Shown here piece after piece: positions 1,470 to 4,772 of a stretch of DNA of 6,207 bases (its first letter is position 1; each line of letters opens with the position of its first letter). Source of the DNA: Nitrospirota bacterium (GTDB lineage Bacteria > Nitrospirota > Nitrospiria > Nitrospirales > Nitrospiraceae); assembly GCA_020028595.1 (NCBI GenBank), contig JAIBHQ010000058.1, positions 1 to 6,207 on the forward strand. The letters are read 5' to 3'. The notes under the pieces were generated by a model that had not been told where the DNA came from, made no database searches, and worked only from the letters and a program-made list of their open reading frames with translations. Position numbers and translations under genes: made by a program.

Positions 1470-2483
1470 ATGTCGAGTTGGTACCGACCTGATCCGCTGA
1501 CCCGCGACCTGATCCATCTCATCAATGCCCGGCGGCATGACCATGGTGATGCTGATGCCGCGATTGACACCCTTCAGGCGTTGCTGGAGCAGGATCGCGA
1601 GCAGGATGTGCTCACGATCCTGGCGGCGCTGGACGAAGAAATGGCCGAATGGCTGTTCGACCTGCTGGCTGAGGCGGCCTGCTCGATCTCGATGGGCGAG
1701 GGGCCTGATGACAAGCCGCGGTATGCCATTCTTGGAGCGCTCGAGTTGCCCTTGCAGGCTGATGTGCGTACGCCCCTGCACTTGAAAATTGATCCCCTGG
1801 CAACAGCCGATCTGCTGCAGGAGCATTTACATTTGACGCCCGGCACCGTCGTGATGGTCGAACCACGACTCCTGACGGACTCGACGATCGAGCGGTTGAC
1901 GTTGCAGGAACTCCATCAACATCTGGCTGGAATGACGGAGGGTCAACGTCGCCAGTTGCTGGCCGCCCGATTGCATCCGCCCATGGAGTCGACGGCCTTT
2001 TTGCTGTTTGAGCTTCTGGGATCCCCGGAACCCGGACTGCCGGACTCGATCGAGGAGCCTAATCGGCAAGCGTTGCTCGCCGGTCTCGTCGCCCAATGTC
2101 CGGAGCTGGCGTCAGCGCCCCACATGCTGGAGGCGCCCGTGTTTTCCAGCTATGCGATGTTCGACGCGCAAAATGCCGTGCGGTTGCACCGGCTGGCCGA
2201 TGAAACGGTGGAGGTCTGGCGCGACCTCGACCCGGCCGTGCGGAGCCGGACGATCGTGCATCTCCATACGCAATGCGGCAACGGCGTGTACATGCCGGTG
2301 TGGACGGACCTCTTCGATCCGGAATTGCCGGACGATCACGGACCGGTGTGGACGTCTCCGGATGTCTGGGTGTTCACCGCCGATCTGCCGATCGAATGGC
2401 CGGGGGAGATGCTGACCAACCGGCTGCTGGCCGAGGGCTGTACCCGGTTCGAAAACCACATTGTCGAAACGCCCGACAACTAA
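1470..2483 (+). CDS. Unrecognised 337-residue cytosolic protein, coupled to the MBL-GGDEF fusion gene
   Basis: I do not recognise a family. No signal peptide or membrane segment is visible. The protein appears to have two parts. Residues 1-70 are helical and rich in Asp, Glu and Leu (ALDEEMAEWLFDLLAEAACS around 53-72). A mixed region follows with strands such as RYAILGALELPL (84-95) and TPGTVVMVEPRLL (123-135), then helices to about 215. The C-terminal part (about 220-337) is rich in Trp, Pro and His, with TIVHLHTQCGNGVYMPVW (261-278), SPDVWVFTADLPIEW (296-310) and a final LLAEGCTRFENHIVETPDN. His264, His266 and Cys269 are close together, but there is no further evidence for a metal site. The chain is acidic overall. 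Its stop lies 3 nt before the start of the MBL-REC-CNB-GGDEF gene, so the two are very probably co-transcribed and translationally coupled, suggesting related jobs. That link is inference from context only. Codon use matches its neighbours. Confidence 0.85.
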   Translation: MSSWYRPDPLTRDLIHLINARRHDHGDADAAIDTLQALLEQDREQDVLTILAALDEEMAEWLFDLLAEAACSISMGEGPDDKPRYAILGALELPLQADVRTPLHLKIDPLATADLLQEHLHLTPGTVVMVEPRLLTDSTIERLTLQELHQHLAGMTEGQRRQLLAARLHPPMESTAFLLFELLGSPEPGLPDSIEEPNRQALLAGLVAQCPELASAPHMLEAPVFSSYAMFDAQNAVRLHRLADETVEVWRDLDPAVRSRTIVHLHTQCGNGVYMPVWTDLFDPELPDDHGPVWTSPDVWVFTADLPIEWPGEMLTNRLLAEGCTRFENHIVETPDN

Positions 2484-2486
2484 CGC

Positions 2487-4772
2487 ATGGCACAGGATCC
2501 TTTAAAAGTACGGTTCTGGGGCACGCGCGGGTCGATCCCCACGCCGGGGCCGCAGACCGCGAAGTACGGCGGCAACACGTCGTGCGTCGAGGTGCGCGCC
2601 CAGGACGGCACGATCATCGTGCTGGATTGCGGAACCGGCGCGCGGTTGTTGGGACTCGATCTCTTGAAGTCGGCCTCCCGTCCCTTGCGGATCAATCTGT
2701 TCATCGGCCATACGCATTGGGATCACATCCAGGGCTTTCCATTTTTTTCGCCGGTGTTCATGCCCGATACCGAGTTGAACGTGTTTGCGCCGGCCGGCTT
2801 GCAGCGGACCGTCGAAGAAGCGTTGACCGGGCAGATGCAGTATTCCTATTTCCCGGTGACGCTTCGCGATTTACGCAGCCGCATTCACTTTACGGAGTTG
2901 GAGGAAGGATTTTTGCGGTTGGGCGACACGATGATCGAAACGCAGTACTTGAACCATACGGCACCGACGATTTCGTTCCGAATTTCGAGCGGCGGTGCGA
3001 CGGTTGCCTATGTGACGGACCATGAGCCGTTCTGGAACTCATCCGGCTCGCAGTTCAAGCATCCGGGGGATCAGCGGCACATCGCGTTTCTCAACGGAGC
3101 CGACCTCGTGATTCATGATGCGCAATACAGCCTGGAAGAATACCCCAGCAAGATTGGGTGGGGGCATAGCACGGTCGACTACGCGACGGAAGTTGCGATG
3201 GCGGCCGGCGTCAAGCAACTGGTGTTGTTTCATCATGATCCGTTGCACGATGATGACGAGATCGCGCGCATGGAAGGCGTGGCCAGGCATCTGGTGAAGG
3301 AACGTGGCGCGGTCCTGGACGTGGTCGCAGCGGCGGAGGGGCTGACCCTGGAGGTGCAGGGCACCCGCCAGGCCCAACTGCCTGACGAAGCCTCGGCCTT
3401 GCGGCGGCGTTCGATTGTCGGCGAACGCGTCCTGGTGGTCGGCGCCTCGGATGCCGAAGTGGCGATGATCGGGCAGGTCCTGGCGGAAGACGGACTTGTG
3501 TTTCTCGCGGCTCCGGATCAGCAGACGGCGCTCATTCAAGCCGGCGAAGTGCCTCCCAGTTTGATGATCGTGGACAAGCAGTTGCCGCAGGGCGACGGGG
3601 TCGGGTTGATCAGACAAATCCGGTCCAAGCTCGACCGCCCCAACCTGCCGGCGATGATGTTGACGAATGAGTCGGAGGCGCCCAGTGGGCGGATCCTGGT
3701 CGGGCCTGCCGACGATTATCTGGCGCGGCCCATTGTGTCCCCCATGCTGCGCGCGCGCGTACGGGCCTGGCTGACACGCGCGTTGACGGCCTTCGATGAG
3801 CAACGGGCCGACGCGGGAGTGCGCGGCGAGGCGTCCGATGAACCGCCCGCCAGTTTTGAGCCGGTCGGCAAGACACTGGGGGGAGCCTATGCCAGCCTGC
3901 TCGCCTCGGCGCCGCTCTTTCAATCGTTATCCCAGGATCAGGTGGCGCGGCTGGTTTCGAAGGCGGTTGAGCGGGTCTACTTGCCGGGTCAGGCGGTATT
4001 TCGGCAGGGCGAATCCGGTGCGCATGTCTACGTGATTCTTGGAGGACAGGTCCGCATTGTCGAATCGACGCCGGAAGCGCCGCTGGTGGATCGGTTTGTC
4101 GGCGAGTTGGGGCAGGGCGAGATCGTCGGCGAGATGGGCCTGCTGCTCGATCACTCGCGGACCGCCACGGTGATGGCGGTGGAGCGGACGCGGTGCCTGA
4201 TGATTCCCCAGGACGATTTTACGCAGGCGTTGGAGCAGTCTCCGCCGCTTGCGATGGGGCTTCTGCGCTTGCTGGCGGCGCGTTTGCAGAATGTCAATCG
4301 CCTCTTGTCCAGAACCGCTCCCGATCCGCTTACGGTCCTGGCCGGACGGCGGACGTTTCATGACCAGTACCGGCGCCTGGCAGCCGGAGCCCGCCGTCGG
4401 CGCAGCAGCGTGATTTTGCTGAGTCTGGATGTGCACCACCTGAAAGAAATCAACGACCATTTCGGGTATTCGATGGGCGACGAGGTGTTGCGCGCCGTGG
4501 CGGATGCGCTGGTGGAGTCCACCCGCACCACCGATCTCGTCTCCCGGTATGGGTCGGATGAGTTCGCCGTGCTCTTGGTCGACGCCGGGCACGAACAGGT
4601 GGAGGTGGTGGTCGACCGTGTCACGCACAAGCTGGCCGACTTGGTGCAGCGGCGAGCCCTGCCTCGCAAGGTGGAATGCAGCATCGGGATCGCAGTCAGT
4701 CCGGTTCCGCCGGAATCTGCCGAGGAACTGCTGCGCGAAGCCGATCTGGGCATGAACCGCCGGAAAATCTAA
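2487..4772 (+). CDS. MBL-fold hydrolase / degenerate receiver / cNMP-binding / GGDEF fusion protein
   Basis: This 761-residue soluble protein has four domains. (1) Residues 5-290 are a metallo-beta-lactamase-fold hydrolase of the PhnP/TaR3-like type: FWGTRGSIPTPGP (10-22), Asp47, HTHWDH (75-80), His157, Asp178, HDAQYS (210-215), GWGHS (224-228) and LFHHDP (247-252). The two-metal ligand set looks complete. (2) Residues 313-430 are receiver-like. Asp363 in MIVD is kept, but the acidic pair after VLVV is Gly-Ala and the usual Lys is Arg414, so phosphorylation is doubtful. A linker (about 433-468) follows. (3) Residues 470-605 are a cyclic-nucleotide-binding domain with a phosphate-binding cassette GEMGLLLDHSRTATV (548-562), including Glu549 and Arg558. 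(4) Residues 611-761 are a GGDEF domain with Asp648, Asn656 and Asp665, signature GSDEF (689-693), and an RxxD inhibitory site at Arg680-Asp683. Likely role: c-di-GMP synthesis tuned by a nucleotide ligand. The hydrolase substrate is unknown. The start has no Shine-Dalgarno and lies 3 nt after the previous stop, but FWGTRGSIPTPGP right behind it supports this ATG. Confidence 0.93.
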   Translation: MAQDPLKVRFWGTRGSIPTPGPQTAKYGGNTSCVEVRAQDGTIIVLDCGTGARLLGLDLLKSASRPLRINLFIGHTHWDHIQGFPFFSPVFMPDTELNVFAPAGLQRTVEEALTGQMQYSYFPVTLRDLRSRIHFTELEEGFLRLGDTMIETQYLNHTAPTISFRISSGGATVAYVTDHEPFWNSSGSQFKHPGDQRHIAFLNGADLVIHDAQYSLEEYPSKIGWGHSTVDYATEVAMAAGVKQLVLFHHDPLHDDDEIARMEGVARHLVKERGAVLDVVAAAEGLTLEVQGTRQAQLPDEASALRRRSIVGERVLVVGASDAEVAMIGQVLAEDGLVFLAAPDQQTALIQAGEVPPSLMIVDKQLPQGDGVGLIRQIRSKLDRPNLPAMMLTNESEAPSGRILVGPADDYLARPIVSPMLRARVRAWLTRALTAFDEQRADAGVRGEASDEPPASFEPVGKTLGGAYASLLASAPLFQSLSQDQVARLVSKAVERVYLPGQAVFRQGESGAHVYVILGGQVRIVESTPEAPLVDRFVGELGQGEIVGEMGLLLDHSRTATVMAVERTRCLMIPQDDFTQALEQSPPLAMGLLRLLAARLQNVNRLLSRTAPDPLTVLAGRRTFHDQYRRLAAGARRRRSSVILLSLDVHHLKEINDHFGYSMGDEVLRAVADALVESTRTTDLVSRYGSDEFAVLLVDAGHEQVEVVVDRVTHKLADLVQRRALPRKVECSIGIAVSPVPPESAEELLREADLGMNRRKI

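Follow-up and report, generated by a model that had tools for sequence, protein, structure and literature searches.

Why should a metal-dependent hydrolase, a response-regulator receiver, a cyclic-nucleotide sensor and a diguanylate cyclase share one polypeptide, and what signal would such a protein convert? The question is raised by a gene in the window analysed here, which is an entire contig of 6207 bases from an assembly of 1.3 Mb and 77% completeness. The gene (positions 2487..4772; all features lie on the plus strand unless marked otherwise) is a 761-aa ORF with an ATG start. Pfam assigned its product Lactamase_B_2 (PF12706) at residues 44-250 (E 3e-14), Response_reg (PF00072) at 315-425 (E 2e-9), cNMP_binding (PF00027) at 496-584 (E 4e-21) and GGDEF at 613-760 (E 6e-35), all four exceeding curated cut-offs. 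A first-pass annotation had proposed this one-chain combination of MBL, receiver, CNB and GGDEF domains, and it is borne out by Pfam, by alignments and by relatives of the fusion.

Three bases upstream of the fusion start is a gene for a conserved Nitrospirota protein of 337 aa (1470..2483), its start at 1470 being inferred from relatives of that length. The protein is 72-93% identical across 47 aligned relatives, belongs to no Pfam or NCBIfam family, and as a model (pLDDT 75) matched nothing in the PDB at E 0.001 or lower. It may be co-transcribed with the fusion. We rejected it as a lineage-wide operon partner and give it no weight in judging function, since it was found in three (L007-L009) of the 18 full-length loci described below, some of the others having short flanks. 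Relatives of two further genes occupy the same place in L007-L009: a UPF0047 gene (950-1363), a name we take to mean YjbQ-like, and a ribonucleotide reductase gene on the minus strand (2-868). An Rfam scan of the window gave no match at gathering score, while promoter and terminator scans gave one promoter-like site (1.2 expected) and eight terminator-like sites (4.0 expected).

The first-pass annotation was aware of no described system with this domain order. The architecture is in fact widespread. In a protein search, 7992 candidates were scored and 4733 matched the fusion; the best 120 of these all carry MBL, CNB and GGDEF domains by precomputed Pfam, and 115 of the 120 also a receiver, a repetition that rules out a chance arrangement. 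At least 587 stretches in the genome collection encode relatives, and among the best 80, which we kept, 18 (L007-L023 and L025) align along the whole fusion or almost the whole of it, with the exceptions that the match in L022 lacks its start, L018 stops at a contig end and L008 has a broken frame. Their labels are Nitrospirae, Rokubacteria, Acidobacteria (also Sulfopaludibacter) and Chloroflexi, although MAG labels may err. The closest two, the MAGs L007 and L008, are labelled Nitrospirae/Nitrospiraceae and have neighbouring genes in common with the window. The fusion is present in 14 of 41 related genomes, with the match in G002 divided over two frames. The L008 copy (G002:C1) has an in-frame stop and a split frame, reflecting either decay or an assembly error.

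The remaining loci of the best 80 align only to about residues 1-450, and include 24 proteins of about 440 aa (MBL-REC) and 35 of about 600 aa. A GAF domain was found at the C-terminal end of all seven of the longer proteins that were scanned; Pfam thus supplied the GAF label for 7 of 35 and the MBL-REC label for 2 of 24, the others being assigned by length and alignment. One locus (L024:7874-9667) encodes a 598-aa MBL-CNB protein without GGDEF, in which Pfam gives no receiver at E 0.01; this is a possible intermediate form. The hydrolase is a shared module that also occurs as MBL-REC and MBL-pseudoREC-GAF, which the first-pass annotation had missed. Each single part is already known. For the combination, either as MBL-REC-CNB-GGDEF or as an MBL-REC/GAF/CNB family, we found no account in the titles and abstract starts of the papers that searches of the openly licensed PMC literature listed, and the word "lactamase" is absent from the main text of a review of c-di-GMP sensors (PMC8846402).

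The MBL-fold hydrolase domain lies at 2502..3368 (residues 6-294; PF12706, with a fold match over residues 1-294) and contains an HTHWDH metal-binding motif at 2709..2726 (residues 75-80). Alignment to B. subtilis RNase Z supported the earlier claim of a complete set of metal ligands, namely H75, H77, D79, H80, H157, D178 and H249, and placed H227 at the HST motif of RNase Z. Conservation was tabulated over 197 rows, consisting of 121 full-length proteins and 17 full-length loci, two sets that overlap, with 35 GAF-length and 24 MBL-REC relatives (L008, with its broken frame, and L037, with an early stop, were left out, and L024 and L031 belong to no class). The HTHWDH motif is conserved in this table: H75, H77, D79, H80, H157, D178 and H227 are invariant in 197 of 197 rows, and H249 is kept in 196. 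Fused catalytic domains frequently end up regulatory, and the MBL domain could by the same route have become catalytically silent, a mere binding or dimerisation module. We find this very improbable, as these proteins retain the ligands across three architectures whereas their receiver has decayed. The domain could also be an RNA-processing or other RNase Z-clan phosphoesterase under sensor control, with c-di-GMP synthesis as a separate second output. The fusion scored far below the curated RNase Z cut-off (TIGR02651; 83.9 vs 292.95 bits), several more RNase Z-like genes are present in the genomes, some outscoring the fusion in the same search, and the partner domains are sensors of small ligands or phosphorylation, all of which makes this reading improbable.

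When the MBL fold was compared with known structures, the cAMP/cGMP phosphodiesterase YhfI matched modelled residues 1-294 nearly as well as RNase Z did. No chain titled Apyc1 was among the 50 structure matches listed, which says nothing against a shared fold. To our knowledge, YhfI, CpdA and Rv1339 have no sensor or GGDEF domains, and Apyc1 is a small phage or bacterial enzyme that also lacks sensor domains. YhfI, CpdA and Rv1339 are atypical class-II phosphodiesterases characterized, in the account cited, by an MBL fold, an HxHxDH motif and PF12706 (PMC9293780), and the fusion has all three as well as the full ligand set. The residue leading the motif differs, being T or S in that account (PMC9293780) and G in the fusion, where the [T/S]HxHxDH form is absent: G74 is found in 121 of 121 full-length members, and S or T takes its place in 34 of the 35 GAF-length relatives and 17 of the 24 MBL-REC relatives. 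Apyc1 and its relatives are described as MBL-fold hydrolases of cyclic mononucleotides with HxHxDH (PMC9117128), and the fusion has such a domain with the same motif. The fusion did not reach the curated cut-off of NF041851 (39.4 vs 400 bits) or that of the typical class-II phosphodiesterase family PF02112 (11.7 vs 23.7 bits). Precomputed annotation places PF23023, which we take to be named Apyc1-like, on many of the best 120 of 4733 relatives, and the local Pfam results for the fusion do not include it.

A receiver-like module had also been noted from the letters, and Pfam confirms its presence but its pocket is degenerate. This pseudo-receiver (3423..3785, residues 313-433; PF00072) reads VLVVGASDAE, lacks the acidic pair and has R414 where Lys is expected, with D363 retained. 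The pocket (acidic residue, Asp and Lys) is complete in 20 of 24 MBL-REC relatives, in none of the 35 GAF-length relatives and in none of the 121 full-length proteins or 17 full-length loci; the acidic pair, phospho-Asp and Lys of a phosphorylated response regulator do not occur together in any of the 121 full-length members. At least six MBL-REC genes (L040, L042, L045, L050, L053, L071) have a histidine-kinase ORF 0-35 bases away. Scans of five of these ORFs found HisKA, HATPase, receiver and Hpt domains, and the kinase in L045 was assigned through its BLAST cluster. Because the pocket is complete and histidine kinases adjoin, the hydrolase of the MBL-REC branch looks like a genuine two-component output. 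Dictyostelium RegA, which joins a receiver to a phosphodiesterase, is a functional parallel to it, although the RegA phosphodiesterase is of class I (PMC11988041). In the other branches, we infer from the pattern that phosphorylation was abandoned where a ligand-binding domain joined. Together, the pattern of receiver decay and the alternative partners suggest that a single hydrolase module moved from phosphorylation input to ligand input.

The ligand would be bound by the CNB domain (3882..4238, residues 466-584; PF00027). As the first-pass annotation had stated, its phosphate-binding cassette, GEMGLLLDHSRTATV (4128..4172, residues 548-562), contains an Arg, in the pattern G548-E549...R558-T559, with E549 in every one of the 121 full-length proteins and R558 in all but one. 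A predicted helix at 4242..4313 (residues 586-609) links this domain to GGDEF and is likely to be the coupling helix between the two. The diguanylate cyclase domain follows at 4314..4766 (residues 610-760), again as annotated earlier, with the motif reading GSDEF (4551..4565, residues 689-693). D691 is present in 121 of 121 full-length proteins, and at the second position of the motif 88 of them have Gly and 27 have Ser, so GSDEF is common to a minority of the family. Residues D648, N656 and D665 correspond to D327, N335 and D344 of PleD. An I-site, RTTD (4524..4535, residues 680-683), keeps R680 in all but one, and D683 in every one, of the 121 full-length proteins and likely serves product inhibition. 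The fusion has the sequence features of XC_0249-like proteins: cassette Glu and Arg, GGDEF catalytic residues and I-site. XC_0249 of Xanthomonas campestris is a CNB-GGDEF protein activated by cGMP, and the fusion likewise joins CNB to GGDEF, where a cyclic mononucleotide is predicted to gate c-di-GMP synthesis; in the cited account XC_0249 has neither MBL nor receiver and is linked to the guanylate cyclase gene XC_0250, whereas we found no cyclase beside the fusion (PMC3770947). Such gating of c-di-GMP turnover through CNB, predicted for the fusion, also resembles Bd1971 of Bdellovibrio, a CNB-EAL protein that hydrolyses c-di-GMP, which the fusion is predicted to make, and for which no MBL is named in that account (PMC8846402).

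Gene neighborhoods of unfused relatives point to cyclic mononucleotides. MBL-domain relatives occur on 244 plasmid records, of which 239 belong to Rhizobium, Sinorhizobium, Ensifer, Phyllobacterium, Mesorhizobium or Allorhizobium. Fifteen plasmid stretches were read, 12 of which are annotated, and 8 of the 12 carry an adenylate/guanylate cyclase or CNB gene, a raw count; L112, L116 (truncated where its record stops), L120 and L122 do not. The first four stretches came from the whole-protein search and are biased toward MBL beside CNB, and since most rhizobial stretches form one syntenic cluster, there are perhaps two independent contexts. In most rhizobial stretches the cyclase is 2-5 kb from the hydrolase. 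The hydrolase of Ensifer sp. PDNC004 comes immediately after a CHASE2-class III cyclase, with an overlap of their annotated ends, and a CNB-only protein of 148-153 residues precedes the hydrolase by 6 bases in Mesorhizobium WSM1497 and by 105 in Rhizobium ACO-34A. All 12 aligned plasmid relatives keep the metal ligands; Ensifer also retains W78 and H179, which the other rhizobia do not. The gene group around the rhizobial hydrolase is partly conserved (L108, L109, L111, L114, L115, L116, L119, L121), with a polysaccharide deacetylase, a glycosyltransferase and a cyclase in most stretches and CNB or DUF3095 in some.

Among the best 80 of at least 587 loci, a cyclase flanks the family only in L054, L060, L061 and L085, none of them full-length; the scan used a home-made profile from two seeds that may miss some cyclases, and we treat the result as null. 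Upstream of one GAF-length relative, at a distance of 40 bases, is a CRP-family regulator ORF (L065:7152-7961). In other Nitrospirota (L100, L101, L102, L103, L107), a class III cyclase adjoins a hydrolase of 255-272 residues with HxHLDH, in regions chosen for the closeness of the two matches. The one cyclase scanned (L100) is a CHASE2-cyclase, and the three hydrolases scanned all exceed the PF02112 cut-off. The fusion's own genome also encodes a PF02112-type hydrolase (L106, G000:C59), which shares 38% identity with the cyclase-linked hydrolase of L100. A PF02112 gene is located 6-8 kb from the fusion in G001, G002, G011 and G014, a spacing we set aside as uninformative because L007 and L009 are colinear throughout the region.

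Co-occurrence points the same way. All 14 genomes with the fusion encode class III cyclases, against 15 of the 27 that lack it (Fisher p 0.003), with mean counts of 5.3 and 1.6 over the 41 genomes. Permutation within families gave p 0.011, and p 0.003 when MBL-REC and stand-alone relatives were also counted. Genomes with the fusion have the smaller assemblies (mean 2.3 vs 3.0 Mb), and matches to the whole protein per genome were similar (14.1 vs 14.6), a weak control since at most 26 candidates were scored per genome. Across the phylum sample of 148 genomes, the MBL subfamily (E 1e-37 or better, with the weaker or split matches of G053, G128 and G144 counted as absent) occurs in 20, and a cyclase in 20 of these 20 vs 93 of the other 128 (p 0.004). 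Within families p was 0.002 over the 24 listed genomes of the mixed families f14, f19, f27 and f29; kinship inside families remains in these tests. Were the MBL domain to hydrolyse an unrelated metabolite (a sulfate ester, a lactone or other), with CNB and GGDEF reporting an unconnected signal, this association with cyclase and CNB genes would not be expected, and we regard that reading as unlikely.

c-di-GMP signalling likely exists in these genomes: PilZ and HD_5 (HD-GYP type) domains were found in 8 of 8 tested and EAL in 4 of 8, with none in the three of the genus (G000, G001, G002). The missing EAL could mean that CNB-GGDEF is a cNMP-gated diguanylate cyclase and the MBL domain acts on c-di-GMP or pGpG, making the protein bifunctional in the manner of GGDEF-EAL. 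That MBL and GGDEF share one chain fits this, as do a PAS-GGDEF ORF 36 bases from a GAF-length relative (L035:9836-10915) and a PilZ gene 127 bases downstream of a Leptospira plasmid relative (L122, 29% identity). However, HD_5 in all eight genomes means that a c-di-GMP hydrolase is already there and the MBL domain is not needed for removal, many MBL relatives lack GGDEF (REC, GAF, CNB-only and stand-alone forms), and the cyclase and CNB neighbors of unfused relatives favor cyclic mononucleotides. An MBL domain acting on c-di-GMP or pGpG is thus unlikely.

The first-pass annotation had envisaged one protein that by itself converts between two nucleotide signals. This remains the most likely reading given the neighbors, the co-occurrence and the YhfI fold match; for its suggestion that the hydrolase produces the CNB ligand we found no support. 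Our favored reading, held at somewhat less than even confidence, is that the fusion is a diguanylate cyclase switched by a CNB-bound cyclic mononucleotide and that the MBL domain hydrolyses the same nucleotide, ending the signal. We hypothesize that a class III cyclase supplies cAMP or cGMP, which would dock at the CNB cassette and shift the CNB-to-GGDEF helix, altering c-di-GMP synthesis in one direction or the other, with the I-site limiting output. Occupancy of CNB would also alter MBL phosphodiesterase activity, which would deplete the nucleotide and reset the switch, and the pseudo-receiver, having lost its role as a phosphorylation site, may couple hydrolase to sensor. A cNMP sensor and a cNMP hydrolase are united in GbpA and GbpB of Dictyostelium, which are MBL phosphodiesterases of class IIb that each contain two CNB domains (PMC11988041). 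Compared by description, they share with the fusion an MBL N-terminal to CNB on one chain; the fusion has one CNB, its hydrolase substrate is a prediction, and no receiver or GGDEF is named for GbpA and GbpB in that account (PMC11988041). More tentatively still, we entertain the possibility that a cNMP phosphodiesterase module was rewired from phosphorylation (MBL-REC) to ligand (GAF or CNB) input and in one branch gained a diguanylate cyclase, so that the protein reads a cNMP, writes c-di-GMP and erases its input, a bacterial counterpart of GbpA with an extra output.

If this is true, the fusion would by itself act as a pulse generator linking two second messengers, with reading, rewriting and erasing of nucleotide signals within one polypeptide, and crosstalk between cAMP or cGMP and c-di-GMP could be tested directly on a single purified protein. 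It would give a function to a broad family that the listed records name, for example, "MBL fold metallo-hydrolase" or "diguanylate cyclase", and the decay of the receiver would show a route by which a hydrolase passes from phosphorylation to ligand control.
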